A stretch of DNA of 39,303 bases from Hydrotalea sp. (GTDB lineage Bacteria > Pseudomonadota > Alphaproteobacteria > JASGCL01), in the NCBI GenBank assembly GCA_030054115.1, contig JASGCL010000010.1:5668-44970 (forward strand), given 5' to 3'. Under the pieces are notes generated by a model, which saw only the letters and a list, made by a program, of their open reading frames with translations, was not told the origin of the DNA and did not search any database. Below are positions 780-37,406 of the stretch, one piece after another. The position numbers were made by a program, and so were the translations under genes. Every line of letters starts with the position of its first letter. Within the stretch, counting starts at the first letter, position 1.

Positions 780-788
780 TAGTTGAGA

Positions 789-2246
789 ATGGCGAAAATT
801 GCAAAGCGACAAAAACCCGTCGCAAACATCAATAAAACCGCGTGGTTGGCGGTGATGCTATTGCCAATATTTTTATACATGTGGGCGGTGTCTTTCCTTA
901 CCCCCATGATGGTCGATGATTTTCAAATGGCCGTGAACAGCACCGGTCGATGGTTCGACCCGGCGTTGATATGGCATCAATTTGTGATTAATTATTTTAA
1001 CGAAAGCGGCCGCATCGGTATATTGTTTTGGGCTTTCTCGCTGTTGTCTTTTGGCCGCCTGCCGTTTTATGAAAATGGCGCGAATTTTATATTGGCGGGC
1101 ATCAACGGTGCGGTGTTCGTTTTGTTTTTATGGTTGTGTTACATCATGGCATTTGGCCAGCGGCCAAATTTTGCGAAAAATAAAGACAGGCTAAATTGGT
1201 TCTGGCTATTCCTCCTCAGCATGATAATTATCGCGCGCAAGGGTGAAACCTATTTTTGGATTAGCGGCTATGTTATGTATCTGTGGTCGATAACCTTGCT
1301 TTTTGCCTTTGGTGTTTTTTATCGTTTGTTATTGAGCGATAAAAATATGTTGCAATTCAAAAAAAATAATTGGCAAAAATATATTTTTATTATTTTTATC
1401 GCGCTCCTTGGGTTTTTGGCCGGCATGACATTTGAAATCGGTGGTATTATTACCATCGCCTTGTTGCTCGGTGTGATTGGTTATCAATGGTTGGTGGCGC
1501 GGCAACAATTGCCGGCCTGGGTTTACATTGGCGCGGTGGCCTTCGTGGTTGGCTACGCGGTGTTGATGGTGGCCCCGGGGAATTATGTGCGCCTTGGCGA
1601 TCCGTTTTTTGCCGCCTTCAACGAAAGAAGTTTTATTGATAAATTAGAGCGCGTGCCGCATATGTTGCGGTTGTTTATCACGCGACTGCGCTGGGTGCCG
1701 CCGATTATTTTATTGTTCGCTTTTTACCATTGGCAAAAAAATAGCAAGGCGGCAGGCAAAAAATCCTCCATCATTGAAAAATTTATCGCCATGATAAAAA
1801 AAGATAAATTATTTGCCACGGCGGTTATTTTTTTCGTGGCGTCCTTGGCTTCGGCCTCGGCGGTCGCCTTTAGCCCGGTGAAGGACGCGCGGGTTTTTTT
1901 CCTCGCCACGGTGCTATTCATGGTCAGTTTTTTATTGGCGATCGATTATCTTTTCACCTCGGGCATTTTGTCGCGGCGGGTTAAGCAAATTATTTTTGTT
2001 GGATTTGCCTTGTTGTTGGTTTGTTGGTTGGTGCGGATTGGCTGTCGCGCCTATGAATATCATAATGCTTTTGAAGCGCGCGAGGTGATTATTAAACAGC
2101 AAAAAGAAAATGGCGTCACCCATATTGTCGTGCCGCCAATGAATTTAAAAACTAATTTTTGGATTAACGATGGTAGTATTAAATCCGATTGGGTGAAAAA
2201 GGCCTGGTCAGATTATTACGGCGTGGCATCGATGGAAGAAAAATAA
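789..2246 (+). CDS. Multi-pass membrane protein, DUF6056-like (paralogue 1)
   Basis: About 485 residues with roughly ten hydrophobic helices. An extracytoplasmic motif near the N terminus (TPMMVDDFQMA) and a central RKGETYFWISGY segment resemble DUF6056-type proteins, which are considered membrane glycosyltransferase-like. The acidic pair after the first helix (VDDF) would suit a catalytic or metal-binding role, as in GT-C enzymes, but this is inference. I chose the ATG at 789; an in-frame TTG at 783 is also possible and neither has a clear ribosome binding site. The gene begins 9 bases after the GtrA-like gene and is clearly paralogous to the next gene. Confidence 0.7.
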   Translation: MAKIAKRQKPVANINKTAWLAVMLLPIFLYMWAVSFLTPMMVDDFQMAVNSTGRWFDPALIWHQFVINYFNESGRIGILFWAFSLLSFGRLPFYENGANFILAGINGAVFVLFLWLCYIMAFGQRPNFAKNKDRLNWFWLFLLSMIIIARKGETYFWISGYVMYLWSITLLFAFGVFYRLLLSDKNMLQFKKNNWQKYIFIIFIALLGFLAGMTFEIGGIITIALLLGVIGYQWLVARQQLPAWVYIGAVAFVVGYAVLMVAPGNYVRLGDPFFAAFNERSFIDKLERVPHMLRLFITRLRWVPPIILLFAFYHWQKNSKAAGKKSSIIEKFIAMIKKDKLFATAVIFFVASLASASAVAFSPVKDARVFFLATVLFMVSFLLAIDYLFTSGILSRRVKQIIFVGFALLLVCWLVRIGCRAYEYHNAFEAREVIIKQQKENGVTHIVVPPMNLKTNFWINDGSIKSDWVKKAWSDYYGVASMEEK

Positions 2247-2249
2247 ACC

Positions 2250-3722
2250 ATGGGACAAAAAAAATCTTCACCTTTGATAAATGGCGCATCGGTTTCTGGC
2301 TTTGGCTGGTTGGTGTGGTTTTTGCCATTTTTTTATATTGCCGTCGTTACTTATTTAACGCCACTGCGCGCCGATGATTTTGCCACCGCCAATATGTATT
2401 ATGATTACGGCTATCAGCCCGGGCATTTTTTCTACCCGCGTATGATTTGGGATTTTTATATCGACAATTATTACCATTGGGGCAGTCGCCTTGGTTATAT
2501 ATTTGTGACAATTCCGTTGGATTCTTTCTGGCGCACGCCGTTTGATTATTTCTGGGCGGCGTTGATTGCCGGTGTGTTGAATGGGTTAGTTTTTACTTTT
2601 TTTACATGGTTGATATTTATTTTCTGTTTTGGCCGTCGGCCAAGCATTTCATCGGTTGATGACCAGCGGCGTTGGTTTTTTATTTTTGCTGGCGCCATGT
2701 TGATATTGGCGCGTAAGGGGGAAACGATTTTTTGGGCCAATGGCTATAGCATGTATAGCTGGCCGGCAACCCTGCTGTTTGCTTTTTTGGTTTTTTATCG
2801 CCTGTTGATGAGCGATAATGATAGATTTGTTTTTTCGCAAAATATTATTAAAAAATATATTTTTATTTTATTTATCGCCATCTTGGGTTTTTTGGGCGGC
2901 ATGACAATGGAATTTGCCGCCCTGGTGACGCTGTTGGTGTTGTTGCTACTGATAGCCTATAAAATTTTTATCGCCAGGAAAAAATTACCGCTGTGGGCCT
3001 ATGTTGGGGTGACGACCTTCATCGTTGGGTTTTTGGTGATGATGACGGCCCCCGGCCAGTGGGAGCGTTTTAAACACTCCGACGACCAAAATATTTTTCA
3101 CCTTAGCGATATTCTGCATCGCTTAAGTTACCTGCCCGACCGCTTCCACCATTTTATTGTTAAGACCAGGTTCATGCCGTTTGTTGTTTTGTTGGTGCTG
3201 TATGGTTGGGGCAAGGAAATAAAGACAAGGGCGGCCATGCCATGGTGGAAAGGCCTGTGGCAAAAAATGCAAAAGGACAAGGATTTTGGGGTGGCGGTGT
3301 TTTTCTTTGTGGCGAGCATCGGTTTTGTTATGGCCAATATCTACAACACCTTTTTTTCATGGCGCGCTTTATATTTTGGTTCGGCATTGTTGTTGGTGTC
3401 GTTGGTGTTGTCGGCCGAATTTGTTTTTGTTAAAAGCAAAAATATCTTGTCGGCGCGATATAAAAAAATTGCCTTGCGCTTGGTGATGTGTTTGGCGGTT
3501 GTCCATTGGGCGGCCTATGGTTATTTTACCTATCGTTACCACGTGGCATTTGAACAGCGGGTGGCATCGATTAAACAACAAAAAGAAAATGGCAAAACCG
3601 ATGTTGTCGTGCCGCCATTTCGGTTTAACACCGCCTATTGGGTGTCGGGCGATATTAACACCGATTGGGTTGCCGACCTTGTAGCAAGATATTATGGTGT
3701 TAGAAAAATAAGTTTGCAGTAA
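2250..3722 (+). CDS. Multi-pass membrane protein, DUF6056-like (paralogue 2)
   Basis: 490 residues with the same architecture as the preceding gene. The two share an early DDF motif (LRADDFATAN here), the central RKGETxFW block, a KYIFIxFIAxLGFLxGM block and the C-terminal IKQQKENG...VVPP segment. They are an old tandem duplication, since identity is confined to blocks. Only three bases separate them. With the GtrA-like gene this suggests two related membrane sugar transferases that could act on different acceptors or linkages. The function is inferred from family resemblance only. Confidence 0.7.
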   Translation: MGQKKSSPLINGASVSGFGWLVWFLPFFYIAVVTYLTPLRADDFATANMYYDYGYQPGHFFYPRMIWDFYIDNYYHWGSRLGYIFVTIPLDSFWRTPFDYFWAALIAGVLNGLVFTFFTWLIFIFCFGRRPSISSVDDQRRWFFIFAGAMLILARKGETIFWANGYSMYSWPATLLFAFLVFYRLLMSDNDRFVFSQNIIKKYIFILFIAILGFLGGMTMEFAALVTLLVLLLLIAYKIFIARKKLPLWAYVGVTTFIVGFLVMMTAPGQWERFKHSDDQNIFHLSDILHRLSYLPDRFHHFIVKTRFMPFVVLLVLYGWGKEIKTRAAMPWWKGLWQKMQKDKDFGVAVFFFVASIGFVMANIYNTFFSWRALYFGSALLLVSLVLSAEFVFVKSKNILSARYKKIALRLVMCLAVVHWAAYGYFTYRYHVAFEQRVASIKQQKENGKTDVVVPPFRFNTAYWVSGDINTDWVADLVARYYGVRKISLQ

Positions 3723-3723
3723 T

Positions 3724-5412
3724 ATGGCTGACAATAAATCTATCCATGATACGATAAAGACGAGCTTGCATCGCGAGGGGATGATTAAAACATGGCGTGC
3801 GTTATTATTTAATTATGTTAGCCAACTGGCTAACAATGGGCGTGACGATGTTAAGATTATTTTGCAGGATAAATTTTTTCGGGGTGTAAAAAAAACAAAG
3901 GGGATGGAAAACCCCCTCGCCGGATTAACCATGGGGCAAATCGCCGGGCTTTATGAATTTTCGCTGGCACATTGCGACGCGGCGGCGCGCAAAACCGCTG
4001 GCCAGTATTTTACGCCCGACGATGTTGCAACATTGATGGCGGATAAGGCCGTAAAAAACCTTGTGCAATATGTTGGCAATAAAGAACAAAATAATAAAGA
4101 AAAAATCTGGTGCGACCCCTGCGCCGGCATTGGCAACCTCGCCTATTATTTGATTGCCCGTCAAAATACCGCCGAGGATTTTTTGCTTAATAATATATAT
4201 TTTATCGACCGCGATCCCTTGGCGTTATTCATTGCGCGCGTTTTGTTGACGGTGCATTTTCAACAAAAAAATAAAAATTTATTTCACGCCATCGAAAAAA
4301 AATTTATCACCGCCGATTTTTTAACCGCCCGCAATTTACCGCCATTCGATTATGCCCTGTTCAATCCGCCCTATGGCAAGGTTGATAAAAATACAAACAA
4401 CCCCAACCATGCGCCCGACCTTTATGCTTTATTTATCGAACGGGTGATGGCGCAAACCAAAGGCCGCGGTGGCGGGTTCGTCGCCGTAACGCCGCAATCA
4501 TTCACCCACGCGCAAAAATTTTTATCCCTGCGGCAACAATTATTGGCGCAGGCAAAAAAAATCACGATTTATAATTTTGACAATGTGCCCGATGGTTTAT
4601 TTAATAATAAAAAATTTGGCAGTATCAACAGCAACCACGCCAACAGCACCCGCGCCGCCATTACCATTTTCCAACATAAAACCGCCGCCAGTGATGGGCT
4701 AGAATTTTTTATCACGCCATGGCTTCGTTGGCGCGCCGCTGAGCGCGCAACATTGTTGGCAAGCGTCGACCATTACTTAACCGCCGTGCCCTATGTTACC
4801 GCGACCATATTTCCAAAAGTTCATGACCATTTTCAAAACCTTTACCAATTGGTGCAGGGCCACGACCAAAACCAAGCAACAGAAAAAACACAAAAAATAT
4901 TGGGTGACATGCTATCCGCCACGCCAACCAAATATAAATTATTCGTGCCGACCACGCCGCGTTATTTTATTTCGGCCTTGTTAAAAAAACCAAACCGCAC
5001 CAGTTATCGCACGCTTTATTTTTTTTCAAGCGAGACGCGCGACCAGGCCTACGTCCTCCTCAATAGCAGTTTTTGCTATTGGTGGTGGCGCGTTACCGAC
5101 GGCGGCATGGGGCTTTCGCAACGCACCTTGCTCACCATGCCGTGGGTGGCGATTGCTGGCCGCCACGACGCGTTGGTAAAAAAAATAAAATGGTCAGAAA
5201 AAAATAATAAAGTTATCAAAAAAAATGCTGGCCGCGACAATGAAAATGTTAAGCACGATATTGCGCTGTTGGCACATTTAAACCGCGCGGTGGTCGGCGG
5301 GTTGAATCATGTCGCCCCGATTAAAATCCCCAGCAATGGGTCGATGCGTCGCGCCCGTGGTTGGCAGGGCAGTGATTTTTTAAAACTCCATTACAATAGT
5401 ATTTTGTCATGA
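3724..5412 (+). CDS. Orphan N6-adenine DNA methyltransferase
   Basis: 562 residues. An N-terminal helical region is followed by GQYFTP (residues 93-98), the SAM-binding motif I DPCAGIGN (131-138), a motif II-like region ending in DRDP (162-165), and the catalytic motif IV NPPY (214-217). This order is typical of gamma-class N6-adenine methylases of the type I HsdM and type IIG/Eco57I kind. The C-terminal half (about 330-560) matches no domain I can name and could serve target recognition. No endonuclease or HsdS gene is adjacent, and no nuclease motif is seen in the protein itself. The start codon lies one base after the upstream stop, so it probably belongs to the same transcript. Either an orphan regulator or a decayed restriction system is possible. 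Confidence 0.85.
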   Translation: MADNKSIHDTIKTSLHREGMIKTWRALLFNYVSQLANNGRDDVKIILQDKFFRGVKKTKGMENPLAGLTMGQIAGLYEFSLAHCDAAARKTAGQYFTPDDVATLMADKAVKNLVQYVGNKEQNNKEKIWCDPCAGIGNLAYYLIARQNTAEDFLLNNIYFIDRDPLALFIARVLLTVHFQQKNKNLFHAIEKKFITADFLTARNLPPFDYALFNPPYGKVDKNTNNPNHAPDLYALFIERVMAQTKGRGGGFVAVTPQSFTHAQKFLSLRQQLLAQAKKITIYNFDNVPDGLFNNKKFGSINSNHANSTRAAITIFQHKTAASDGLEFFITPWLRWRAAERATLLASVDHYLTAVPYVTATIFPKVHDHFQNLYQLVQGHDQNQATEKTQKILGDMLSATPTKYKLFVPTTPRYFISALLKKPNRTSYRTLYFFSSETRDQAYVLLNSSFCYWWWRVTDGGMGLSQRTLLTMPWVAIAGRHDALVKKIKWSEKNNKVIKKNAGRDNENVKHDIALLAHLNRAVVGGLNHVAPIKIPSNGSMRRARGWQGSDFLKLHYNSILS

Positions 5413-23969: not shown

Positions 23970-24932
23970 ATGTTAAGCAATCAACCGATTGTTATAAGAG
24001 ACTTAAATACTTGGCCGATAGAGGTTAAGGAATTTTTGGCGGCGCACGAAGAATTGTTGGTTGATGAGAAGATTATAAAAATCGAGCTCGAGCAAATAGA
24101 CAAAGAAAGCAATGGCAGTCCATCTAATGCTTCGATGATAGCAGAACAAAATGAGCTACCATCAGCAAAAATTATCAATAATATATATAAAAAATATGGG
24201 GGCAAGGAACAATTTAATATATGTCGTGATAAATTTAAGACAGATTTAGTAAACATTTTACAAAAACATTCATTTCTGCTGGTGCATTACACGCGTTTAA
24301 CCGAATATGAAATAGGGGATATATTAAATAGCGGGCTGTCCTTGCCGAATTCGGCGGTTCTAGCAACGCGAATTGATAAATTGGTAGAACAGAAATATCT
24401 AACCGAAGAGCAAGCAAATCATTTAAAAAAATATAATGCTTATACTGATGCTAATGAAAGAAAACGCAGGGAGAATATTTTTTGCTTTGTGTCTGGTGAC
24501 CCATTGGAAGGGGAAACAGATAATTCAAAATGTCCTGATTATGGTAGATTAGTAAAATGTTGGGGTGGCGAAGCCTTATATTGTGGCAATGAAGAGTTAG
24601 TTATTGGCCAAACATTAAGAAAAATTGGCATTCCATCTATTATAGAGGCAGTTATTCCATGTTCTATTTTATGTAATGTTGATTTAGGACGCCAAGCAGT
24701 CGATAGATTTGTAAATCGACACTTAAAAAGCAAAAAAATTATTTATAAAAATGATAAATTATTTACAGAATATGAGGAATATCAAGACGGGTATGGCTGT
24801 CAGACCAAGGAAGACATCACCAACGAGGATATGAAAAAAATAAATATACTCAGAATTATTCGCTACGATAAAGACAGGGAAGAATTTATCCGTTTTACCG
24901 GTTGCGACAAATGGGATGAACAGCTTATTTAA
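23970..24932 (+). CDS. AT-rich orphan protein, possible ADP-ribosyltransferase-like fold
   Basis: 320 residues; not recognised with confidence. A charged N-terminal part (1-95) is followed by LLVHYTRLTEYEIGDILNSG (103-122), which recalls the HYT...IL..GL entry of ART-like toxins such as the DarT and RNA 2'-phosphotransferase groups, and by GRLVKCWGGEALYCG (192-206), where Glu201 could be the catalytic acid. The gene is clearly more AT-rich than its neighbours and has seven cysteines after residue 170. It ends one base before the facing aminotransferase gene, and no promoter or ribosome binding site stands out. It looks like an acquired gene, with a toxin, defence or effector role possible. 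The ART assignment is an inference from short motifs. Confidence 0.6.
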   Translation: MLSNQPIVIRDLNTWPIEVKEFLAAHEELLVDEKIIKIELEQIDKESNGSPSNASMIAEQNELPSAKIINNIYKKYGGKEQFNICRDKFKTDLVNILQKHSFLLVHYTRLTEYEIGDILNSGLSLPNSAVLATRIDKLVEQKYLTEEQANHLKKYNAYTDANERKRRENIFCFVSGDPLEGETDNSKCPDYGRLVKCWGGEALYCGNEELVIGQTLRKIGIPSIIEAVIPCSILCNVDLGRQAVDRFVNRHLKSKKIIYKNDKLFTEYEEYQDGYGCQTKEDITNEDMKKINILRIIRYDKDREEFIRFTGCDKWDEQLI

Positions 24933-24933
24933 C

Positions 24934-26373
24934 CTACTTCACAACCCCTTGCTTCTTTAAATCCATCATGGTGCGTTTGACGCCCTCTTTTAACGTGTCG
25001 ACCAGGAAATCAACTTCCCCCTCGGTAATGGTCAGGGGCGGCGACATAACGCACAGGTTCACAATCGGCCGCACCAGCAGGCCCAGGTTGTAACAATGGG
25101 CGTCAACCATCAACCCAACCCCGCGGTCAAGTTTTAACAAACCATTGTCGTCCTTGTCCGATTTGCGGTTGGCCACCAATTCGATACAACCGATTAACCC
25201 CTCGCCGCGCACGTCGCCGACAATCGGAATTTCCAACAGTTCGCGTAATCGTTTTTGGAAATAGGGAATGATTTTTCTGGCATGGCCGAGGATATTTTCT
25301 TTTTCAAAAATTTCCAAGGTTTTTAACCCGGCGGCGCATGCCATCGGGTTGCCGGAAAAGGTAAAGCCCGAGGTGAAAACCGCGCCATTTTTCCCGCCGA
25401 CTTTTTCCGCGCCGGCCACTTGGTTGTAAATTTTATCCGACAGGAAAAACGCCCCCATCGGCATGTAACCGCCAGTTATTGCCTTGGCGGTGGTGATGAT
25501 GTCGGGCACAATGCCGAAATAATCCTCGCTCGCCAACACATGGCCCATGCGGCCAAAACCGGTAACAACTTCGTCCGAAATATACAAAATATCATGCTTG
25601 GTGCAGATGGCGCGCATCGCCGCCAAATAACCCTTCGGCGGCACAATCACCCCGCCCGACGCCTGAATCGGCTCGGCAATAAACGCGCCGATATTGTCGG
25701 CACCATGTTGCGCAATTAAATCTTCAAATTCTTTCAGGCGGGTTTTTAAAAAATCCTCCTCCGACATATTGTCGGGTTTGAAATACAAATTTGGCGATTC
25801 CAAAAACAATGCCAAATGGGTCGCGCTGTCCATAAATGGGCGGTCGCGTTCGCGGCCGGTTATCCCCTGGCATAGGTAGGTCGCGCCGTGGTAACTTTTT
25901 TGCCGGCTGACAATTTTTTTCTTGGTCGGGCGGCCCAGCAAATTGTTATAGAAAAAAACAAACCGCAGGGCGGAATCAACCGCCTCCGACCCGGAGTTGG
26001 TAAAGAACACGTGGTTCAAATCGCCCGGCGTGTGTTTGGTTAACTCGCGCGCAAATTCCACCGCGATGGACGACGTCATGGCAAATGGTGAATAGTAGGA
26101 TAATTTTTCGGCCTGGGCGGTGATAGCCTTAACCATGTCATGGCGGCCATGGCCCAACGCCATGCACCACATGCCGGCCGGCGCGTCGAGAATTTTTTTG
26201 CCATCTTGGTCGTAAACAAAAACCCCCTCGCCCCGTTCAAACATCGCGCGTTTGTTCGTGCCCGAATATTCCATAAATTCCCATGGGTGGATAATATGGT
26301 CGTTGTCCCCCTGCCACAGCATTTTTTTTTCGTCGTCGGAAAAGGGTGGATTGTTGTGTAATATGTTGGCCAT
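24934..26373 (-). CDS. Class III PLP-dependent aminotransferase (omega-transaminase type)
   Basis: 479 residues. The class III features are TNSGSEAVDSALR (125-137), SYHGAT (160-165), the cofactor-binding DEVVTGFGR (267-275) and the PLP lysine Lys297 in TTAKAITGGYMPMG. Length and N terminus (HPWEFMEY then VYDQDGKKILDAPAGMWC) resemble the polyamine, taurine and beta-alanine:pyruvate transaminases. These move an amino group from an omega-amino compound to pyruvate or 2-oxoglutarate. It is the last gene of the minus-strand run with the sox-like genes, 95 bases after the ABC gene, which suggests a role in amine breakdown. The substrate cannot be read from the sequence. Confidence 0.9.
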   Translation of the reverse strand: MANILHNNPPFSDDEKKMLWQGDNDHIIHPWEFMEYSGTNKRAMFERGEGVFVYDQDGKKILDAPAGMWCMALGHGRHDMVKAITAQAEKLSYYSPFAMTSSIAVEFARELTKHTPGDLNHVFFTNSGSEAVDSALRFVFFYNNLLGRPTKKKIVSRQKSYHGATYLCQGITGRERDRPFMDSATHLALFLESPNLYFKPDNMSEEDFLKTRLKEFEDLIAQHGADNIGAFIAEPIQASGGVIVPPKGYLAAMRAICTKHDILYISDEVVTGFGRMGHVLASEDYFGIVPDIITTAKAITGGYMPMGAFFLSDKIYNQVAGAEKVGGKNGAVFTSGFTFSGNPMACAAGLKTLEIFEKENILGHARKIIPYFQKRLRELLEIPIVGDVRGEGLIGCIELVANRKSDKDDNGLLKLDRGVGLMVDAHCYNLGLLVRPIVNLCVMSPPLTITEGEVDFLVDTLKEGVKRTMMDLKKQGVVK

Positions 26374-26468: not shown

Positions 26469-28157
26469 TCATACCAGCAATAATTTGGTTTCCTGGGTCT
26501 GCGGCGATTGCAACAGCGTATTTTTTTCGCCTTGCTCAATAATAATACCATTGTGCATGACAATGATATTATCGCTCAGGGCGCGCACCACGTTAATATC
26601 GTGGCTAACCAACAGGTAGGCGATGTTGTGTTTTTCCTGCAACCTTAACAACAATTCTATCATGTCGCGGGCGGTGGTTTTATCAAGCGCCGAGGTTGGC
26701 TCGTCCAGCAAAAGAATTTTTGGTTGCATGATAAGTGCCCGCGCCAGCGACACCCGTTGCCTTTGCCCGCCGGATAATTCGTGCGGGTAATTGTGCCATA
26801 ATGATTTATCGATTCCGACCTCGCGCAACATATCCTCGGCGGCGGTGATGGCGGCTTGCTTGGCCGATTTGTCGCCCCGCATCAACATTGGTTCGGCGAC
26901 AATATCAATAATAATTTGCCGCGGTTGCAACGATGAAAATGGGTCTTGGAAAACAACCTGCATGTTGCGTCGTTGCGCGCGCAATTGCCGGTTTGATAAG
27001 CCGCGCCAATTATTGCCGGCGACCATGATGTCGCCGCTTAAATATTGCTTTGGCGTTAGCATAAGCAACGCCTGGCACAGGCTGGTTTTGCCCGCGCCCG
27101 ATTGACCGATAACGCCGAGGGTTTGCCCGCGGTAAAGCGAAAAATTAATATCCTGCAGAATTTTTTTTACCTGCGGTGGTTGGCTTGCTTTGTTTTTTTG
27201 CCAAAAGAAAAGCCACTGGTTAAAAAATTGATAGGTTGTTTTATTATTGAGCGGCAAAGTCATCGACAGGTGGCGCGCCGCCAAGACAATATCGGTATCA
27301 TCGGGTTGGTTTTGGTTGGCTGGTTTTTTTTCGGGGTAGTTCATTTGCCAAAACGCCCGCCCATAATCGGTGCGCGGGTTGGTCAGCATGGTGGTGGTCG
27401 GGGCTTGCTCGATAACCTTGCCGTCGCGCAATAATAATAATTCGGATGTCAAATCCTCCAGCCCCAATTTATCGTGGCTGATATAAATCAGCGATAATTT
27501 TTTGGTGATGATTATTTTTTTTATCATCGCTAACAATTGATTTTTGATATGCTGGTCCAGCGCGGTGGTGGGTTCATCGGCGATTAAAATATCTGGCTCC
27601 CCCACCAATGCCATGGCGAGCAAGATACGTTGTTTCTGCCCACCGGATAATTGATGCGGGTAGCGTTGCCAAAAATCATCGGCCAGGTTATCGCGGTTGT
27701 TTTTTTTCTCGACGCTGAAGCGCGGCAAAGATAATTCAGCGCAAAGATTGGCCATGAAATCGATATGTTCCTGGCCCAGCATCGCCAGGCCGCGACTGGC
27801 CAACATGGCGGCGGCAAATTGCCGGCCAACGCGGTGTAGCGGGTTGAGGGCCGAATGAGGTTCCTGGAACAGCACGCCAATTTTTGCGCCGCGAAATTTG
27901 GCGCGTGCCTTGAAATCGGTGGTGGCCGATTCCTCGCCGAAGCAGGTGATACTGCCCGTCCCGCCAAATGGTTGATAGGGGGATAAAAGCCCGGGGATAG
28001 CCATTGCCAATATTGTTTTGCCCGCGCCGGATGAGCCAACCAAACCAACCCCCGCCCCACGGCGCAGGGTGAAGGAAACATCGTCGAGCAATTTTTTATG
28101 GTTGAGCTCCAGCGAGAGGTTTTTAACCGTCAGCAGGATGTCATTAGAATTTGTCAT
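26469..28157 (-). CDS. Double-ATPase ABC transporter protein (oligopeptide/microcin C type)
   Basis: 562 residues made of two complete ABC ATPase halves. The first has Walker A GSSGAGKT (41-48) and signature LSGGQKQR; the second has Walker A GQSGAGKT (about 355) and signature LSGGQRQR, each followed by a Walker B ending DEPT. This fusion is typical of YejF/GsiA proteins, where DppD and DppF are joined, energising peptide, glutathione or microcin C uptake. No permease or periplasmic binding protein lies in the window, so its partners are elsewhere. A linker of about 60 residues (about 275-335) between the halves is longer and less regular than usual. Confidence 0.9.
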   Translation of the reverse strand: MTNSNDILLTVKNLSLELNHKKLLDDVSFTLRRGAGVGLVGSSGAGKTILAMAIPGLLSPYQPFGGTGSITCFGEESATTDFKARAKFRGAKIGVLFQEPHSALNPLHRVGRQFAAAMLASRGLAMLGQEHIDFMANLCAELSLPRFSVEKKNNRDNLADDFWQRYPHQLSGGQKQRILLAMALVGEPDILIADEPTTALDQHIKNQLLAMIKKIIITKKLSLIYISHDKLGLEDLTSELLLLRDGKVIEQAPTTTMLTNPRTDYGRAFWQMNYPEKKPANQNQPDDTDIVLAARHLSMTLPLNNKTTYQFFNQWLFFWQKNKASQPPQVKKILQDINFSLYRGQTLGVIGQSGAGKTSLCQALLMLTPKQYLSGDIMVAGNNWRGLSNRQLRAQRRNMQVVFQDPFSSLQPRQIIIDIVAEPMLMRGDKSAKQAAITAAEDMLREVGIDKSLWHNYPHELSGGQRQRVSLARALIMQPKILLLDEPTSALDKTTARDMIELLLRLQEKHNIAYLLVSHDINVVRALSDNIIVMHNGIIIEQGEKNTLLQSPQTQETKLLLV

Positions 28158-28191: not shown

Positions 28192-28953
28192 TTAATAATC
28201 AATTTTGATACGGGTGAGGTTGTTGGTCTTCACCGCCGCCACCAGCGCAAGATGACAAAACAGCGACGCCGCGGCCGAGCGCGGAATAAAAAACAAGGCC
28301 TCATCGCCCTGGTAAAAAATATAAAGCGGTTTGTTTAAAATCGACAGGCAATAAAAATTATCGCCTGATTTGTTGTCTTTCGGTAAGGGAATGAAGCTCG
28401 ACAGAAAATCATTTAATTTTTTTTGCCCGCTGACCCGCACCAATTGCCAACCCGCCCCGCTAGGTTGGATGAAGGGCGATGGCGATTTGTTATCGCGCGG
28501 GCTGGGCTTGTGCTGTTCGTTGTAAACCATCGCCGATGATTCGCTACAGCGCATTACCAACAGGCCTGATTTTTTCACCGCCAGCGATGATTGATAATAA
28601 ATATCCTGCCTGATGGGCGATAAGTTTTTTGCCGCGCCAAGTTTGCCCAGCAGGTTTATTAAAAATTTTTCAGGGTGCGCCTCACCGACCGGCGCGACCA
28701 ATGTTTGCAAGGCATGATGCGCCAAGGGCGCAACACCGGTCAGCAAAAGCCCGTGGTTGATGATAAACCCATCGGGGCGGCTTTTATCCACATAACTTTC
28801 GGTTAGGGCATTATCGATACGGCCGCGGTCGGGGCTATCGGCACCGGCCAGGCCGGTGAGGCCGGGAAAATCCGGATGCCAATAATCGCCGACCGGTAAT
28901 AATATAAGTGGCGAGGTGCTGGGCACGGCGGAAGCGGATGGGTTTTTTTTCAT
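28192..28953 (-). CDS. soxG: Sarcosine oxidase gamma-like subunit (divergent)
   Basis: 253 residues from the ATG at 28953. That start is preferred because AAGGA sits about ten bases upstream and the SoxA-like stop is only seven bases away; the longer frame from 29004 would overlap it. The protein follows the SoxA-like gene directly, as SoxG does, and shows the family-like opening (LPVGDYWHPDFPGLTGLAGAD) and a C-terminal LYIFYQGDEALFFIPRSAA block. Similarity is weak, and two Lys/Asp/Ser-rich stretches (about residues 148-160 and 195-205) look inserted. In sarcosine oxidase the gamma subunit packs against the folate-binding part of alpha. The call rests mainly on position. Confidence 0.6.
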   Translation of the reverse strand: MKKNPSASAVPSTSPLILLPVGDYWHPDFPGLTGLAGADSPDRGRIDNALTESYVDKSRPDGFIINHGLLLTGVAPLAHHALQTLVAPVGEAHPEKFLINLLGKLGAAKNLSPIRQDIYYQSSLAVKKSGLLVMRCSESSAMVYNEQHKPSPRDNKSPSPFIQPSGAGWQLVRVSGQKKLNDFLSSFIPLPKDNKSGDNFYCLSILNKPLYIFYQGDEALFFIPRSAAASLFCHLALVAAVKTNNLTRIKIDY

Positions 28954-28960
28954 GGCGATG

Positions 28961-31900
28961 TTATTCCTTTGCTTCGGGTAAGCCAAGTTGGTGGTAGGGC
29001 ACAATTATTGCCCGTTGGTAATTTTTAAACAATGGGTCGGCAATCATGACCTCCTGGCCGAATGGATCTTTCCATTTACCAGACAATGGGTCAAGTGCCG
29101 AGCGGACAAAACCAAGGGCGATGTATTTTTTTCTTATCGGGCAATAGGTCGCGCTGGTGATACGGCCGATGCCATGCCCCTGCGCCAGCGGTTCTTTATC
29201 AATTTCCTGCACGATACTGCCGGCGCGGATAATCGCCTGCTGGCCGGCACTGACCAGCGGGTTAAAGTTACTATTAAGGTTGGTGCCGGGCGCACCCGTG
29301 GCGGCGATAAAACCGCAGAGCCGTTCGCGATTTTTTTGGCCGAGGAAATCTTTTGATGCCTCGTCGCGGCCGGAAAACTTCCCATCACGCATGGCATCGT
29401 TAAGCCGACTATCGTAAAGACTATGGCCGCCGTCGATTTCGCCGACCGTGCCATGGGCGCCATCGCCCTTTAACATACGCCAATAATCCAGTGCTATCCG
29501 CCCCAGCCCAAATGGCCGATACCCCATGGCGTCAATGATGTCGCCAAGCGCGATGGTTGTGGCCGGTTGCCCCGCCGATTTTTTACCCGATAATTTTTTA
29601 GCGGCTGGCATTTCTTCATCATTTTGCGGGGCGAGCGCGCCATGCCATAATTGTTGGTATAGCGCCACCGCCTGGTCGGCTTGGCAGGTTATTTCAACGT
29701 CGGCCACCATGCCGCCGATGTAATAGGCGGGGAGGAAACGCCGCCGGCTTAGCAAAAACGAAAAGCCGCGCCACTCAACCTGTTGCGCTTGGTTGAGCGG
29801 TAAGTTCTTTATCAGCAATTGCCTTGCCACCTGGTCTAAATTTTCTTTTTCGTCCTTGGTGAAGGATTTTTTTACAGCGGCGTTTTTGCCCAATATTTTT
29901 TCGATGGTTTTTTCGATTAACTGCCCGTTATAAAATTGGCTGAGGAGCAGGGCAACGCCGCGCCCAACCAAGCGCAGGGTCGCCGATTGCTCGCTGTCGT
30001 CGATGATGCCCAAGGCGAATCTATTAACCCGCGCCAGGTGCGTGATGAATTGCGCCACCTGATGATTATTGGTGGGCTGGTTCATGGCGGGCAAGCGCAA
30101 CGGCAGGGATAGGATAACCATATCCGCCGCACGCACCATATAGCGGCCGCGCGCTAGAATTAAACCATCGCGCGGGTTGAGCAGGGTAACACCGCCCGCC
30201 GCACCAACCTTGCTGTTGCTGATTTTGGTCGCCGATAAAAATTGTAAGAAATCAATCGCCCGCTTGCCTATAATTTTTATCGTCGTCACCGCCGAGCCAT
30301 CGGCAAAACCGATGCCATTTAGGATATTTTGTTTTTCTTCGAGCGACTCCTCCTCGGCTTCATCCCCCGCGTGGTATGGATAATAATTGGCAATTTTTTT
30401 ACCATCCTCGACCGTGGTTTGCGCCCCATGGTCGTTGCTCAGGTTATTTTCGGGGTGCATGATGACATTAAAAAACTTTGGCCGATGGGTCAGGGGATAG
30501 AGCGGCATTTCCTCCTTAACCGCTACTTGGTTAAAAAATTGCCGACCATCAAGCGGCAGGTGCGCCAGCGCACCCAAGGCGGTGGGGTGGGCCATGCCGT
30601 GCAATTCACCAAAGATATTATTTTGCTGGATGATATTTTGCATTGTCGTCGCGGCGTCGGTTACTTTGTTGCCGTAAAGATACGCCAGGGCAAGCGACAA
30701 CCCACCCTGACCACGGTCAAAACCAAAACCCAATTTGCTGTAATGTTTGATGGCAAATGGCGTGTGGTAACCGGCGGCGAACGAGCCATGGATATGTTCT
30801 AACTTCACGTCATATTGGTGGTCGATGAAGCTGTTGCGCCCCAAATGCTGGGTGTCGGGCAAAAACCGATGGGGCATGATGGTCAGGCCATGGTGATATG
30901 CAACCATGTTACCTTCGCCAGTTGATTTTTTGCCCCCTGACTTGCTCAAAGATTTACCCACAGACTTGCCCTCTAATAAATTGGCAATTTCGCTGGCGAC
31001 ATCATTTGCCATTTTATGCGCCATGTTATTATTGCTATCGGTTTGGTGGCCGCTGTGGCCCACGAAGCATCCGCCGGCCGCGCCAACCAAAAAAACTTGC
31101 GACGGCCAATGTTTGGGCAGGTAAGCCTGCAATGGTTCGACCCAGGTGAGGAAATCCCCCTCCCGCTTGTCCTTGGGTAGCAATTGCGTGAACAGCGACA
31201 GCCGTGGTTGAAACCCGCCGCTTACAAGTAGGCAATCGCTGTTAAAAATCTTTTCGGTCTCCGCCGACAGGGCTTCATCGGTTTGGTCGGGGCGCGCCAG
31301 GACAATTTTGCTGGCCTGCGGCGCGACATATAATTCGGCCGGTTGTTTTTGTTTTTTGCTGGTGGCGTTTTTGGCCAAGTTTTTGGTTGTTGATAATTGT
31401 TCCCCGGCTGTTGGTTCGGGTGATAATTTTTCTGGCGTGGCGGTTTCATCTTCATCCAGCTGTTGCACCGCCAATAGCGACGCCACGGTCGGGTTGTCGG
31501 TGCGCACCACGCGGCCCAGCATTTTTATCGCCTTGCCGATACTGCGTGGGAAAATGGTTGGTGCCGATTGGCTGTAAAGGGCGCGGGCGCGCTTCGGGTA
31601 GTAAAATTCAAAAACCTCGGCCCCCGCCGCCTGGGCCATGGCACGCAACGCCGGGTTAATGTTTTTTCTGATATCGATAACCGCCGAGACACTAACCCCC
31701 GCCGAATGGAGGTAATCCAGATGGTGATAAACACTATCATTGTTGGTGATGATAACCGCGTGATGGCCGGGTTTGACGCCATAGATTTTTAATAATTTGA
31801 CGGCATTGCCAAAACCCATGATGCCCGGCAGGTCGTTGTTGTCAAACGGCAATAATTGTTCGCTTTTGCCGGTGGCCAAAATTACCGCACGGCAATGAAA

Positions 31901-33031
31901 AACATGATGCTGTTCGCGCCATATAACCTCGCCCGCCGCGTGGTTGTCGCGCTGGGTATGGTGGCTGTTGGCGGTGATTTCGATAATATCTTCGCGCATG
32001 GCCGCTTGGGCATTTTTTGTTTTGTCGGCGGATGCCGGACCTTTGAGTTTCTTGCTGGTCACCGCGGTGGTGGAAAAAAACCATGAAATGCGCGGGTCCA
32101 GCCGCAACCGCGCGCTTGCCTTGCCGATGGCATCGCTCATCTTGGCCATGGTGACATCGTCGGTTTCGTTGCTTATCAGCGCAATGCTGACCGATGACTT
32201 GCCAAGTTTAGCCATCAACGATTGCAGGGCCAGCGCACCATCGACCCCGCCGCCAACCACCACCACATCATATTGGTGAAATTGGTTGTCGTAAAATACT
32301 TGGGTGGCGGTATCGCGCCCCATATATTGGAATGCCGGGTTGACCAATGGTGCCGGCGCGTAGCCCATCATCTGGCGTAAAAAATCAGTCCAAAAACCGC
32401 CGCTGGTGGTGGCAAAATTTTTGCCGGTGAAGCCGTTCATCAACCCCAGGGCGCGGTGGGTGTCGTCGCGCAATTGGTTTATATCGTCGCGGGAAACGTC
32501 GCTGGTGCCAACCGCCCGCGCCAAACGATTGCCCAAATTTTTTGACAATCGCGCCGGCTGGCTGATGGGTTTGGGCATGGCCGAGACGACCTCGCGCGTT
32601 TTATTAAAAAATTGGATGGAGGAAAATTTGTCCGGGTGGCGCGTGCGATAGAACCTTGCCCCTGGGATAAGCGGCAGGGTGCCGACCGCCATGGCCGGTT
32701 CAAACCCATGGCGGTGATTATTGCCGGTTTTATCGCCGATGGCAACGAAGCCGTTGCTTTCATAAAATTTATCGGCCAGCATGCCGCGCGGCCGATGGTA
32801 AAGCAGTGAGCCCGCCAAAAATTTTTGCTGGTTGGCGAGCAATGCCGCCGCCACGTTATCACCATGAAACCCCAAGTATTTTTTGCCATCAAGAAAAAAC
32901 GCCACCGGCCGGCGTGTATCAACCGCGACACCAAATGGCCGACCGGCGCCAAGTTGTTGTGGCGCAACGCGCAAGGAATCGTCGGCGACCACCGCAGTTG
33001 GCGTTTGGGGTTTGTCTTTTTTTATTTTCAT
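28961..33031 (-). CDS. soxA: Sarcosine oxidase alpha-like subunit, unusually large
   Basis: 1356 residues against about 970-1010 for usual SoxA. Recognisable parts in order: Fer2_4-type N-terminal domain (FHGDNVAAALLANQ, YHRPRG near 78-83), Rossmann domain with intact VVVVGGGVDGALAL (256-269), the ATGKSEQLLPFDNNDLPG block (about 400-420), LLVSGGFQPRLSL, then IKHYSKLGFGFDRGQGG, and an aminomethyltransferase (GCV_T)-like C-terminal domain that ends in GRITSATYCP. In SoxA these bind NAD and tetrahydrofolate and demethylate sarcosine. Several Ser/Lys/Thr-rich low-complexity inserts (about 515-570 and 685-710) account for part of the extra length. The gene starts two bases after the SoxB-like stop. 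The substrate could differ from sarcosine. Confidence 0.8.
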   Translation of the reverse strand: MKIKKDKPQTPTAVVADDSLRVAPQQLGAGRPFGVAVDTRRPVAFFLDGKKYLGFHGDNVAAALLANQQKFLAGSLLYHRPRGMLADKFYESNGFVAIGDKTGNNHRHGFEPAMAVGTLPLIPGARFYRTRHPDKFSSIQFFNKTREVVSAMPKPISQPARLSKNLGNRLARAVGTSDVSRDDINQLRDDTHRALGLMNGFTGKNFATTSGGFWTDFLRQMMGYAPAPLVNPAFQYMGRDTATQVFYDNQFHQYDVVVVGGGVDGALALQSLMAKLGKSSVSIALISNETDDVTMAKMSDAIGKASARLRLDPRISWFFSTTAVTSKKLKGPASADKTKNAQAAMREDIIEITANSHHTQRDNHAAGEVIWREQHHVFHCRAVILATGKSEQLLPFDNNDLPGIMGFGNAVKLLKIYGVKPGHHAVIITNNDSVYHHLDYLHSAGVSVSAVIDIRKNINPALRAMAQAAGAEVFEFYYPKRARALYSQSAPTIFPRSIGKAIKMLGRVVRTDNPTVASLLAVQQLDEDETATPEKLSPEPTAGEQLSTTKNLAKNATSKKQKQPAELYVAPQASKIVLARPDQTDEALSAETEKIFNSDCLLVSGGFQPRLSLFTQLLPKDKREGDFLTWVEPLQAYLPKHWPSQVFLVGAAGGCFVGHSGHQTDSNNNMAHKMANDVASEIANLLEGKSVGKSLSKSGGKKSTGEGNMVAYHHGLTIMPHRFLPDTQHLGRNSFIDHQYDVKLEHIHGSFAAGYHTPFAIKHYSKLGFGFDRGQGGLSLALAYLYGNKVTDAATTMQNIIQQNNIFGELHGMAHPTALGALAHLPLDGRQFFNQVAVKEEMPLYPLTHRPKFFNVIMHPENNLSNDHGAQTTVEDGKKIANYYPYHAGDEAEEESLEEKQNILNGIGFADGSAVTTIKIIGKRAIDFLQFLSATKISNSKVGAAGGVTLLNPRDGLILARGRYMVRAADMVILSLPLRLPAMNQPTNNHQVAQFITHLARVNRFALGIIDDSEQSATLRLVGRGVALLLSQFYNGQLIEKTIEKILGKNAAVKKSFTKDEKENLDQVARQLLIKNLPLNQAQQVEWRGFSFLLSRRRFLPAYYIGGMVADVEITCQADQAVALYQQLWHGALAPQNDEEMPAAKKLSGKKSAGQPATTIALGDIIDAMGYRPFGLGRIALDYWRMLKGDGAHGTVGEIDGGHSLYDSRLNDAMRDGKFSGRDEASKDFLGQKNRERLCGFIAATGAPGTNLNSNFNPLVSAGQQAIIRAGSIVQEIDKEPLAQGHGIGRITSATYCPIRKKYIALGFVRSALDPLSGKWKDPFGQEVMIADPLFKNYQRAIIVPYHQLGLPEAKE

Positions 33032-33033
33032 CG

Positions 33034-34434
33034 TTATATCGCCCTTTCATAAAGGAATTGCCCCTTGGTAAAACGTTGGAAACCATAATCGGCGGCCGAT
33101 GGGTGGGGTGTGCCGGTTGCCACCAAATGCGCCATCGCCACGCCGGCGGCGGGGGCCAGGGCGTAACCATCGCCATTGATGCCGGTCACCATGTAAAGAT
33201 CATTTTTATCAAACAGCCGGTCGATAATCGGCGAGCCGTCGAACGATGCCAAATATGTTTGGTGCCAGCGGGTTAATAATTTTACCCGCAACAACGCCGG
33301 CATTAATTGCACCGCCGCCCGTGCCAACACCGTGGCGCGGTGCGAGATATTATCAACATTGTCCATCTGGTCCAGGTGCGCAAAAAACGCGTCGCTGGTG
33401 GTGGCATCGAATTCCATATTGGTTAGGTTGTTTGGCAGGGGGTGGCGGGCGAAGGCGCGGAACCAGACATTGCCCAATTCCCCCTGGCCGATGCTGACCT
33501 GGGCCACGGCGTCATCTTGGCCGGCAATGCCGCCGAACGTGGTGGGAAATTGAATTATTTTATCCATCATCGGCGACAGGCTTTCTGATAACAATTCGAC
33601 CTCGGTCGCGGCCACCCATGGCCAGGCACCGGCCGCCATGTTTTTGCCAAACATTGCGGTCATTTCGCGGGCGAAGAATTTTTTTAATTCCGGACTATGG
33701 TCGGGGCTGTTGGTCAGGAGTCTGGCCCCGCCGTCGGCCATCGCCAAGATTATTTTTTGGCCGTGAATGCTGTGGGTGGTGCCGTTGCGGGTAATTTTAA
33801 CCCCGCTGGTGCCGCGACCATTTTTGCTGAAGATAATTTCCTTGATGCTGGCATGTTGGACAATTTTGACGCGCCGCGCCGATAAGGTTCGCCAAAAGCC
33901 GTAGAAAGCCGCCATCGGGTTAAAAAAACCGGCGCGCCCCTGGGCCAGGCCGGCCAGCACCGTTTGGCTGGCTTGGTCAGAAAAATCGACCAACGGTAAA
34001 ATGCGGCGCAATTCGGCCAATTCCAAATAATCGGCGTCGACGCCATGCAGGCGCATGGTGTTGCCGCGATAACGCGCGTTTTTTATCATTTTGTCGTTTG
34101 TTAATAATTCTATCGCACCGATTTGCGACAACATGACATTGTAACCAATATCGCGGTGCAGGTCTTCCCACAATTTTAAATTCATTTCAAAAAATGGCGT
34201 GTTGGCCCCGGTTTGATAATTGGCACGCACCATTGCCCATTGGCGGTTGTCGATGGTCGCGCCCAGCGTTGTCGGGCTGAGGATTAAAATATCCTCGCCA
34301 TCGTGGTTTTGCGACAAATAATGGGCGATAGACAATGCCATGGTATCGCCGCCGATAATAATCACCGCGTGATTTTTTTTTACCACTTCCTCAATGGTGT
34401 CATTTATAACATAGGGGCGGGGGGAAGACTGCAT
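33034..34434 (-). CDS. soxB: Sarcosine oxidase beta-like subunit lacking flavin motifs
   Basis: 466 residues. It is a D-amino-acid-oxidase-fold protein, recognised by the overall SoxB pattern: an opening VIIIGGDTMALSIAHYL (24-40), MVRANYQ (68-74), SPIIDRLF-like and GYALAPAAGVAMAHL blocks, and an RFTKGQFLYE end. The FAD loop normally reads GxGxxG; here it is G28-G-D30-T-M-A33, so two of three glycines are gone. The acidic residue at the end of the second strand is replaced (ILSPT). The segment that in SoxB carries the covalent-FMN histidine (RHDAV-like) reads NPMAA here (172-176). It is the first sox gene, directly followed by the SoxA-like gene with no soxD between. It may be a flavin-free or rewired subunit. 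Confidence 0.75.
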   Translation of the reverse strand: MQSSPRPYVINDTIEEVVKKNHAVIIIGGDTMALSIAHYLSQNHDGEDILILSPTTLGATIDNRQWAMVRANYQTGANTPFFEMNLKLWEDLHRDIGYNVMLSQIGAIELLTNDKMIKNARYRGNTMRLHGVDADYLELAELRRILPLVDFSDQASQTVLAGLAQGRAGFFNPMAAFYGFWRTLSARRVKIVQHASIKEIIFSKNGRGTSGVKITRNGTTHSIHGQKIILAMADGGARLLTNSPDHSPELKKFFAREMTAMFGKNMAAGAWPWVAATEVELLSESLSPMMDKIIQFPTTFGGIAGQDDAVAQVSIGQGELGNVWFRAFARHPLPNNLTNMEFDATTSDAFFAHLDQMDNVDNISHRATVLARAAVQLMPALLRVKLLTRWHQTYLASFDGSPIIDRLFDKNDLYMVTGINGDGYALAPAAGVAMAHLVATGTPHPSAADYGFQRFTKGQFLYERAI

Positions 34435-34485: not shown

Positions 34486-35328
34486 CTACAAAAATTCTAT
34501 AACAGGCTTTGCGCCGATTTCATAGTCCAACCTTAATAATGATAAATAGGGGATTTTGCGCGCCATGGCTTTATTTAAGGCATCAGTCAATAGTTGGTTT
34601 TCGGCCGTGTGATAAAAAAACGCCATGATGGCGCGAAGCACCCCGTCATGCGCCACGATGACGATGTTTTTTTCACGGCATGTGGCCAGCAATTTTTCCA
34701 GCGTGGTTGTCGCCCGTTGGTAAAGCATGATAAAACTTTCGCTAGTATTTTCGTTATCGGGAGATTTATCGGGGTATTTATCGGGACATTTATTGGGGTA
34801 TTTATCGGGGGATTTATTGGCGGGGGGCGCGCGGTTGATAAAATCTTGCCAAAATATGTCATAGGCGACTTTATCCCGCGCCTCAACCTCGGCATAGGTC
34901 ATGCCGTGCCACGCGCCAAAATGTTGTTCGCGAAAACCCTTGTCGGTGTTAAGTTGCGGCGTTGCGGCAAATGCTGGGTTCTGCCGACGCAGGTCGGCCA
35001 GCAAATGGTCAAATGTTTGGCGCACGCGAAGCAGGTCGGAGCCGGCAAAATAAATATCATCGCAAATATTATCGAGTTGTTGTGCGGTGGCGTTGATAAT
35101 GGCACGCGCCACCATGGCGTAACGTTCGTGGTTGCGCGCCGCGGTAATGGGGTAATCCAATTGTCCCAAAATCACACCGCCGATGGGTTGGCCGGCCGAA
35201 CCATGTTGCGCGGGAAAAACCACCTGGTCATGGCGCAGGAGGAAAATTTTTTTGCCCTGGCCATGCCCGCCATGACCCCTGTGCTCATTGACTGGCGCGT
35301 TTGTAACGTTACTCTTAACCTTGTTCAT
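34486..35328 (-). CDS. Histidine phosphatase family protein (phosphoglycerate mutase-like)
   Basis: 280 residues. The phosphohistidine motif is LLRHDQ (31-36, His33), where most family members have RHG. SDLLRVRQTF (97-106), FREQHFGAWHG (132-142, Glu134) and the second catalytic histidine in VAHDGVLRAI (226-234, His227) complete the active site. Broad-specificity phosphatases and the alpha-ribazole phosphatase CobC share this fold; CobC is conceivable because cobN is in the window, but nothing proves it. Residues about 170-193 are a repeat of P-[DN]-K tetrapeptides encoded by a 12-base tandem repeat. It lies 51 bases upstream of the SoxB-like gene on the same strand and may head that operon. 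Confidence 0.85.
   Translation of the reverse strand: MNKVKSNVTNAPVNEHRGHGGHGQGKKIFLLRHDQVVFPAQHGSAGQPIGGVILGQLDYPITAARNHERYAMVARAIINATAQQLDNICDDIYFAGSDLLRVRQTFDHLLADLRRQNPAFAATPQLNTDKGFREQHFGAWHGMTYAEVEARDKVAYDIFWQDFINRAPPANKSPDKYPNKCPDKYPDKSPDNENTSESFIMLYQRATTTLEKLLATCREKNIVIVAHDGVLRAIMAFFYHTAENQLLTDALNKAMARKIPYLSLLRLDYEIGAKPVIEFL
34754..34825. repeat. Six-unit 12-base minisatellite inside the phosphatase gene
   Basis: Six consecutive 12-base units (34754-34765, 34766-34777, 34778-34789, 34790-34801, 34802-34813, 34814-34825) follow the pattern TTATCGGGGNAT, with the last unit more diverged. In the coding strand they encode four-residue repeats of Pro-Asp/Asn-Lys plus Tyr, Ser or Cys. The 12-base unit keeps the frame, so copy number can change without breaking the gene. 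Confidence 0.95.
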
Positions 35329-35661: not shown

Positions 35662-35693
35662 TTAATTTATTATTCCACTTGAGGTATAATAAA

Positions 35694-37406
35694 ATGAATA
35701 AACATTCACCAGAGCATCAAAATGAAATTTTACTATTAAATAAAAAAATAAGTGAAAAAATCGCCGATGAGGGATTCGACGATGGCGAAAGATTTGAACT
35801 TTTTTGTGCAAATTTTATTTTAAAGGATTATAACCTTGATGACGCGCAGATAGGCGAGGGCATTATTGATGGCACACAGGATGGCGGCATTGATGCAATT
35901 TATATTTTTATTGATGGAGAGTTAATATCAATTAATGATGAAAAAAAATTTGATGATGTTGAAGATTTAAAAATAATAGCTATCCAATCGACATGTGATG
36001 ATTATTTTGAAAAGAAAAAAGTTATTAACTTTCTTGACACAGTTAGGAGATTAATTTTTTGCTCGGATAAAGATTTTAATAATAACGCTTCTATTGTTAG
36101 ACCCGAATTACTAGCAATTATTAAAAACTATAGAGAAATTAGAGGAGCAACTCTTCCTAAAAAGATAGAGCTGTTTTATCATTATTCGGCAAAAAGGTCC
36201 CATCAAGATAGTGATGATTTAAAAGAATATTTAAATAAAGAGATAAATGATATAAGAGCAAGAAATCAATTTGATTTTTATTTTGATAGTAAATTTTATA
36301 CGACGAAAGAATTACTAGAAATTGCAAGGAGTCGCCCAAAGAAAATTAGAAATATTAAATTTATAAATAATACATGTATGAATCATAAAGATGGTTATTT
36401 GTTCTTTTGCAAGTTAAAAGATTTTAGAGAATTTTTAAAAGCGAGAGATGAGTCTGGCAATCCCAAGGATGATATAGATATTAGCCTTTTTGAAAACAAT
36501 ATTAGAGCTTATCAAGGAAATAAAAAATCGGCAAATAAAGCCATGCAAGATACCCTTGCCAGTGATGGAGCCGAAGATTTTTTATGGCTAAACAATGGGG
36601 TAACCATTATTGCAGATCAATTTTCTCCTCGTTCTGACGACGCTAACATCGATAATCCAATGATAGTCAATGGATTGCAGACTTCTAGAACGATTTTCGA
36701 TTATCTAAAACCTGCTAGAGAAGAAAATGCTGTTTTAATTAAAGTGATTATTCCAAAAGATAAAAAGAGCATAGATAAAATTATTCGTTCAACCAATACA
36801 CAAACAGCAGTTCCTCCAGAAGCACTTTACGCAACAGAAAAAATTCATTATAACATAGAAGACCATTTGCAAAAATATAATATTTTTTATGATAGAAGAA
36901 AAAATTTTTATAAAGAGAAAGGAAAAAAAGCTTCTGAAATTCTTACTATAAAAGCGTTAGCGCAAGCAATTTTAGCAATAGTCGAAAAAAAGCCTGACGA
37001 TGCAAGGGCGCGACCATCTAATTATCTTAAGGATAAAGATAAACATGGTAAAATTTTTAATACGAATTACCCATTAGATACTTACTATATAGCGACAGAA
37101 TTGCTTCGAGTAACAAATAAATTTTTAAAAAATAAAATTAAGCACGAAGAAATAAGCACATTTCAGAGCAAGGATATTTTATATTATATTATGATGTCCA
37201 TTCCCATACTTTTATTAAAAAAGGAGCAGCCAACTGCAAAAGAAATATCTAAGATAGAGGTAGATAAAGTTGATGATAAATTAATTAATCGTGCATATTC
37301 GGGTGTTAAAAATATATATGATAAGGCAGATGACGGACACACTTATTCAAAAGGCACTGAGATGTTGCAAAAAGTGAACGCTTGGCTAAAATCAGAAATT
37401 TCGTAA
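35694..37406 (+). CDS. AIPR-family (abortive infection phage resistance) protein
   Basis: 570 residues from the ATG at 35694, chosen because GAGGT (35681-35685) is well placed; a TTG at 35679 would overlap it. The C-terminal half has the AIPR pattern: ENNIRAYQG (267-275), FLWLNNGVTIIADQF (296-310) and NPMIVNGLQTSRTIFDYL (321-338). The N-terminal part resembles a PD-(D/E)xK nuclease: GTQDGGIDAIYI (60-71) followed by IIAIQST (94-100), where a lysine would be expected in place of Thr100. AIPR proteins occur in phage-defence loci. The gene is far more AT-rich than its neighbours and sits between tRNA-Cys and ettA, suggesting recent acquisition. No partner gene is adjacent, so it may act alone. 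Confidence 0.85.
   Translation: MNKHSPEHQNEILLLNKKISEKIADEGFDDGERFELFCANFILKDYNLDDAQIGEGIIDGTQDGGIDAIYIFIDGELISINDEKKFDDVEDLKIIAIQSTCDDYFEKKKVINFLDTVRRLIFCSDKDFNNNASIVRPELLAIIKNYREIRGATLPKKIELFYHYSAKRSHQDSDDLKEYLNKEINDIRARNQFDFYFDSKFYTTKELLEIARSRPKKIRNIKFINNTCMNHKDGYLFFCKLKDFREFLKARDESGNPKDDIDISLFENNIRAYQGNKKSANKAMQDTLASDGAEDFLWLNNGVTIIADQFSPRSDDANIDNPMIVNGLQTSRTIFDYLKPAREENAVLIKVIIPKDKKSIDKIIRSTNTQTAVPPEALYATEKIHYNIEDHLQKYNIFYDRRKNFYKEKGKKASEILTIKALAQAILAIVEKKPDDARARPSNYLKDKDKHGKIFNTNYPLDTYYIATELLRVTNKFLKNKIKHEEISTFQSKDILYYIMMSIPILLLKKEQPTAKEISKIEVDKVDDKLINRAYSGVKNIYDKADDGHTYSKGTEMLQKVNAWLKSEIS

Follow-up and report, generated by a model that had tools for sequence, protein, structure and literature searches.

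On the minus strand of the analyzed window (a stretch of 39,303 nucleotides), soxB*, soxA*, and a gene in the soxG position encode what we consider, with moderate probability, a pseudoenzyme paralogue of heterotetrameric sarcosine oxidase (HSO), in which the beta subunit is structural and any remaining ligand or redox role lies in the alpha subunit. Such a complex would have stopped being an amine oxidase and would still be kept as a folded protein complex, with a beta subunit that binds neither FAD nor covalent FMN and acts as the structural partner of alpha. Cofactor residues are lost, the fold appears selected in simulations, and a motif-intact paralogue is present in the genome. The gene soxB* (33034..34434, minus strand) encodes a SoxB-like beta subunit in which the flavin-binding motifs are absent, and its frame is intact over 466 residues, as the sequence-only reading had stated, with the start ATG at 34434 and the stop at 33034–33036. 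The protein scores 189.8 bits against TIGR01373 (soxB), which is below the curated cut-off of 529.45, and it is matched by Pfam DAO (E = 2.8e-26). Its best PDB matches by phmmer are the chains 2gag_B, 3ada_B, and 1vrq_B, and its identity to SoxB relatives in the MAFFT alignment is 23–34%.

All four flavin-related changes claimed from the sequence alone were recovered by alignment, each on the minus strand. The first concerns the FAD phosphate loop (residues 28–33; 34336..34353), in which GGDTMA replaces GGGGHG, so that the central Gly is changed to Asp and two loop glycines remain. The second is Ser53 (34276..34278), placed where beta strand 2 ends and relatives carry the ribose-binding Glu; soxB* reads ILSP where relatives have VLEK, and the acidic residue corresponds to the E of V(L/V)EK. 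The third was found by phmmer and alignment and comprises Asn172-Pro173-Met174 (33913..33921) in place of Arg-His-Asp. Within this segment, NPMAA (172–176), Asn172 occupies the Arg column and Pro173 the column of the flavin-binding His. The last is the C-terminal motif (residues 418–428; 33151..33183), where GINGDGYALAP replaces GWCYGGFKATP and aligns to the family pattern GW(CY/GT)GGFKATP. Furthermore, GATIDNRQWAM replaces GGGNTGRNTTI of the relatives, a segment which we take to lie near the flavin in the SoxB family. The residue roles in HSO, including that of the His of RHD as covalent FMN attachment site, are likewise taken as background. The motif register was identical by MAFFT, by a family HMM built without the query, and by phmmer to 2gag_B, 3ada_B, and 1vrq_B, and alignment with these solved SoxB chains revealed neither a normal GxGxxG nor a His at the equivalent positions. 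GxGxHG, RHD, and GWxxxGFK are kept in 49/49 SoxB relatives, all from the same class, and the acidic-residue pattern is matched in 48 of the 49; chance is therefore excluded as an explanation for the changes in soxB*.

Judged from these residues, the combined loss of motifs makes binding of both FAD and FMN by soxB* improbable. A missing FMN-His is by itself compatible with bound FMN: in opine dehydrogenase relatives, this flavin lies between the alpha and beta subunits, where an Arg-X-Trp motif has been proposed to bind it (PMC4575208). This precedent, the two remaining loop glycines, and a Rossmann fold predicted to be intact speak for residual binding by soxB* of FAD, or of FMN where alpha and beta meet, in an unusual manner despite the altered motifs. 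However, Asp stands in for the central loop Gly, and the ribose Glu has disappeared together with GGNTGRNTT and GGFKATP; we regard retained flavin binding as highly improbable. A flavin-free scaffold, as put forward in the sequence-only reading, is the simplest interpretation of the motif losses together with the kept fold.

The fold of soxB* was predicted by AF2 with a pLDDT of 80.9 and a pTM of 0.86; as the model is informed by flavin-binding homologues, it indicates compatibility with the fold and is not a proof of it. Foldseek returned the HSO beta chains 1vrq_B, 3ada_B, and 2gag_B as best matches of the model (TMt 0.80–0.82), and residues 301–309, 332–347, and 421–423 were poorly predicted. 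The rest of the fold had been described as well conserved, which does not hold for the sequence: at 23–34% identity, the protein retains no more than about half of the residues that are invariant in the family, and it is the fold that is kept. Among columns with at least 95% conservation, soxB* retains 47/102, compared with 99/104 for the canonical copy of the same genome, and none of the SoxB relatives falls below 73% retention at a conservation threshold of 90%. Within the reliably aligned parts (18–237 and 370–465), the relatives L020 and L025, which are as divergent as soxB* where columns vary, retain 86% and 84% of the invariant columns, respectively, versus 48% in soxB*. This low retention compared to equally divergent relatives indicates that the family-defining constraints are gone in soxB*. 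We also considered a loss restricted to the flavin sites, as initially suggested, and rejected it in favor of a general loss in which the flavin motifs are only mildly enriched. Of the flavin motif positions, 19/24 are lost (5/24 kept) versus 55/107 elsewhere (52/107 kept), a modest enrichment for a set of positions chosen post hoc (Fisher p = 0.02), and the middle region (238–369) is hardly alignable.

The claim that soxB* does not look like decay stood up. No stop was found in the 2077 codons of the three sox* genes, where neutral drift to 50–60% identity would be expected to produce about 40, and GC content by codon position (GC3) as well as synonymous codon choice resemble those of neighboring housekeeping genes. 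A foreign-DNA artefact was rejected on the basis of this native codon usage. Hydrophobic columns of soxB* were kept hydrophobic at a proportion of 0.86, compared with 0.72–0.74 in the null, and none of 600 stop-free neutral runs with a matched loss of invariant residues attained this value; on the well-aligned parts, the proportion was 0.91 versus 0.73–0.75. Selection on soxB* is thus deduced from simulations and not from dN/dS, for one genome with no orthologue among the genomes scanned. The pattern looks different from ordinary decay in that the fold appears selected and the old chemistry does not, and it is most simply explained by selection for a protein that folds but no longer has its original active site. 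A functionless, redundant paralogue that is being lost under relaxed selection and has simply not yet been hit by a stop would account for other features of the data. How conserved a column is has almost no influence on its retention in soxB* (0.45–0.46 relative to family frequency in every conservation class, while controls rise steeply), retention at polar columns equals that of the neutral null, and the loss extends jointly over beta and alpha as well as the soxG position and soxD. Nevertheless, the absence of stops, the hydrophobic core beyond the neutral null, the native codon usage, and a block of the alpha subunit (residues 386–660) with 20/22 invariants kept all run against relaxed selection, which we consider unlikely.

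The alpha subunit gene soxA* (28961..33031, minus strand) encodes a SoxA-like protein of 1356 aa with many in-frame insertions, whereas relatives have 980–1019 aa and the canonical copy of the same genome 1049 aa. It reaches 206 bits against TIGR01372 (cut-off 1164); of its domain matches, Fer2_4 passes, and GCV_T, GCV_T_C, and SO_alpha_A3 remain below the cut-off. In total, soxA* retains 110/222 family-conserved positions, compared with 210/242 for the canonical soxA. The loss is unevenly distributed. In the GcvT-like half, 44% of the invariants are kept, which is at or below the neutral null, and Ala960-Arg961 (30149..30154, minus strand) replace a conserved Asp-Asp in the folate domain. An Asp at this site is presumably catalytic for folate chemistry in the GcvT/dimethylglycine oxidase families, an equivalence that we assume by sequence. 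In contrast, the dinucleotide domain keeps 70% of its invariants, a proportion reached in 0/120 simulations under a null of about 50%. A constrained block (residues 386–660; 31052..31876, minus strand), which contains an insertion at about 485–595 and encompasses the most confidently predicted part of the alpha model, keeps 20 of 22 family-invariant residues (p ~6e-5 against one half, for a region chosen after inspection). The GxGxxG of this domain (GGGVDG, residues 260–265; 32237..32254, minus strand) and the ATG motif are intact; following strand 2, ADE has changed to ISN with loss of the acidic residue, and the FGGxL loop has been deleted. The alpha model, covering residues 1–690, is weak (pLDDT 59), with insertions largely of low confidence; its best match is 1vrq_A, and others include 1y56_A and disulfide-reductase-type flavoproteins.

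The alpha subunit would have lost its folate chemistry, with one half of its dinucleotide-binding domain still under selection. As this half is the part still under selection, any remaining ligand-dependent role, be it sensing or the binding of NAD(H) or a similar dinucleotide, would sit there. The earlier suggestion that the chemistry had shifted to alpha is consistent in part with these residues: the retention in 386–660 and the intact GxGxxG agree with it, and the loss of the folate residues and of the FGGxL loop does not. Another explanation would be a re-purposed redox complex, in which the beta flavins are lost and the alpha dinucleotide domain, with NAD(H) or with FAD as in the proline dehydrogenase-type alpha, runs a new reaction. 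Beyond the intact GxGxxG and ATG and the conserved block, it would fit the fold matches to 1vrq_A, 1y56_A, and disulfide-reductase-type flavoproteins, and the aminotransferase and ABC ATPase genes that may belong to the same operon. However, the altered acidic residue and the missing FGGxL loop do not favor this explanation, no second redox partner is evident, and the neighbors do not point to one reaction, so that we consider it quite unlikely. Only tentatively, the complex could be flavin-free with beta as a pure scaffold and an alpha block that newly senses a nucleotide or performs a non-flavin reaction, possibly together with the neighboring transporter ATPase and aminotransferase.

Regarding the locus, soxA* begins 2 bp after soxB*, and a soxD hidden between them was rejected, as there is no room in 2 bp; in the relatives examined, soxD overlaps or abuts neighboring frames. 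The soxG-position gene (28192..28959, minus strand; 255 aa) was assigned by position only and shows a short SoxG-like motif FFIPRSAAASLF. It yielded no family match, and a SoxG identity was undetectable by HMM, with the SoxG HMM also taking in alpha GcvT-like domains. Three further minus-strand genes are possible operon members: a YejF-like double ABC ATPase 34 bp downstream of the soxG-position gene (26469..28157), a class III aminotransferase (24934..26373; PRK07036 above cut-off), and a histidine-phosphatase-superfamily gene directly upstream of soxB* (34486..35328). The proposed pseudoenzyme complex may be linked to the transporter ATPase and the aminotransferase. No permease or binding-protein gene accompanies the YejF-like ATPase among the larger ORFs of the window. 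An in-frame repeat insert, KSPDKYPNKCPDKYPDKSPDN, is present in the histidine-phosphatase-superfamily gene, and the canonical soxA likewise exceeds that of relatives in length; in-frame insertions may therefore be common in this genome. Two plus-strand genes were probably acquired. The first (35679–37406), near the sox* cluster, is an AIPR-domain gene matching AbiU (PADLOC, E = 1.5e-134) with a low GC3 (0.22) and foreign codon usage and is probably a phage-defence gene; the second (23970–24932) encodes 320 aa, has a low GC3 of 0.30 unlike its neighbors, and gave no match in Pfam, NCBIfam, or PADLOC. Elsewhere in the window, two tandem DUF6056 genes (783–3722, plus strand) precede a gene for a type II DNA methyltransferase (3724–5412, plus strand).

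The source genome (1.68 Mb, 95.5% complete) is the sole member of its order among the genomes searched and contains a b/b' pair of ATP synthase genes, which points to an alphaproteobacterium. It also contains a second, canonical soxB-D-A-G operon (G000:C12, L032) with all motifs present; its soxB keeps GGGGHG, IE, RHDA, and GWGTGGFKATP. No SoxD, and no SoxG detectable by HMM, is encoded in the genome outside this operon. Two small genes, one of 103 aa and the other probably DUF1638-like, lie directly upstream of the canonical soxB (L032, 1290–2260). By identity, soxB* is nearest to the GWCYGGF/MSMDGSPII subtype, and the canonical copy belongs to the GWGTGGF subtype. As the subtypes differ, soxB* probably did not arise by recent duplication of the canonical copy. 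Its placement in a tree was not used, because soxB* joined the outgroup with a branch length of 10, which looks like long-branch attraction. Homologues sharing the GGD and NP changes had been proposed as a further line of evidence, and no such orthologue was found in 58 relatives, 385 genomes of the class, and 399 genomes of the phylum, nor in two contig scans of further genomes that reached close relatives only.

Complexes of the sarcosine oxidase type are regarded as strictly flavin-dependent enzymes, and annotation by homology could name soxB* a 'sarcosine oxidase'. The sox* genes caution against assigning one-carbon or amine metabolism by homology alone. With a fold that is seemingly selected, the loss of flavin sites, folate residues, and zinc subunit, and a motif-intact copy in the same genome, they offer a clean natural test of non-chemical subunit roles. 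Among the papers searched, none paired sarcosine oxidase with 'pseudoenzyme'; in common with pseudoenzymes in general, soxB* combines a kept fold and an intact frame with lost catalytic residues. Compared to HSO (Corynebacterium sp. U-96 1vrq/3ada; 2gag), the gene order B-A-(G) and the predicted beta fold are shared, and sequence homology to both large subunits is significant (TIGR01373/TIGR01372). However, soxB* lacks the FAD loop, the ribose Glu, the FMN-His, and the C-terminal GGFK, the operon is without the SoxD (zinc) subunit, the Asp-Asp of the folate domain is lost in soxA*, which is about 350 aa longer, and both proteins score far below the curated cut-offs. The canonical soxB-D-A-G of the same genome belongs to the same family, but keeps the motifs and soxD. 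The L-proline dehydrogenase PDH1 (1y56) and the opine dehydrogenase OdhABC, which contains FAD and FMN, share the beta and alpha folds predicted for the sox* proteins and show that, in related complexes, FMN can lie between alpha and beta and beta subunits can be exchanged (PMC4575208). Unlike the sox* complex, PDH1 and OdhABC keep the ADP-binding GxGxxG in both alpha and beta (PMC4575208).
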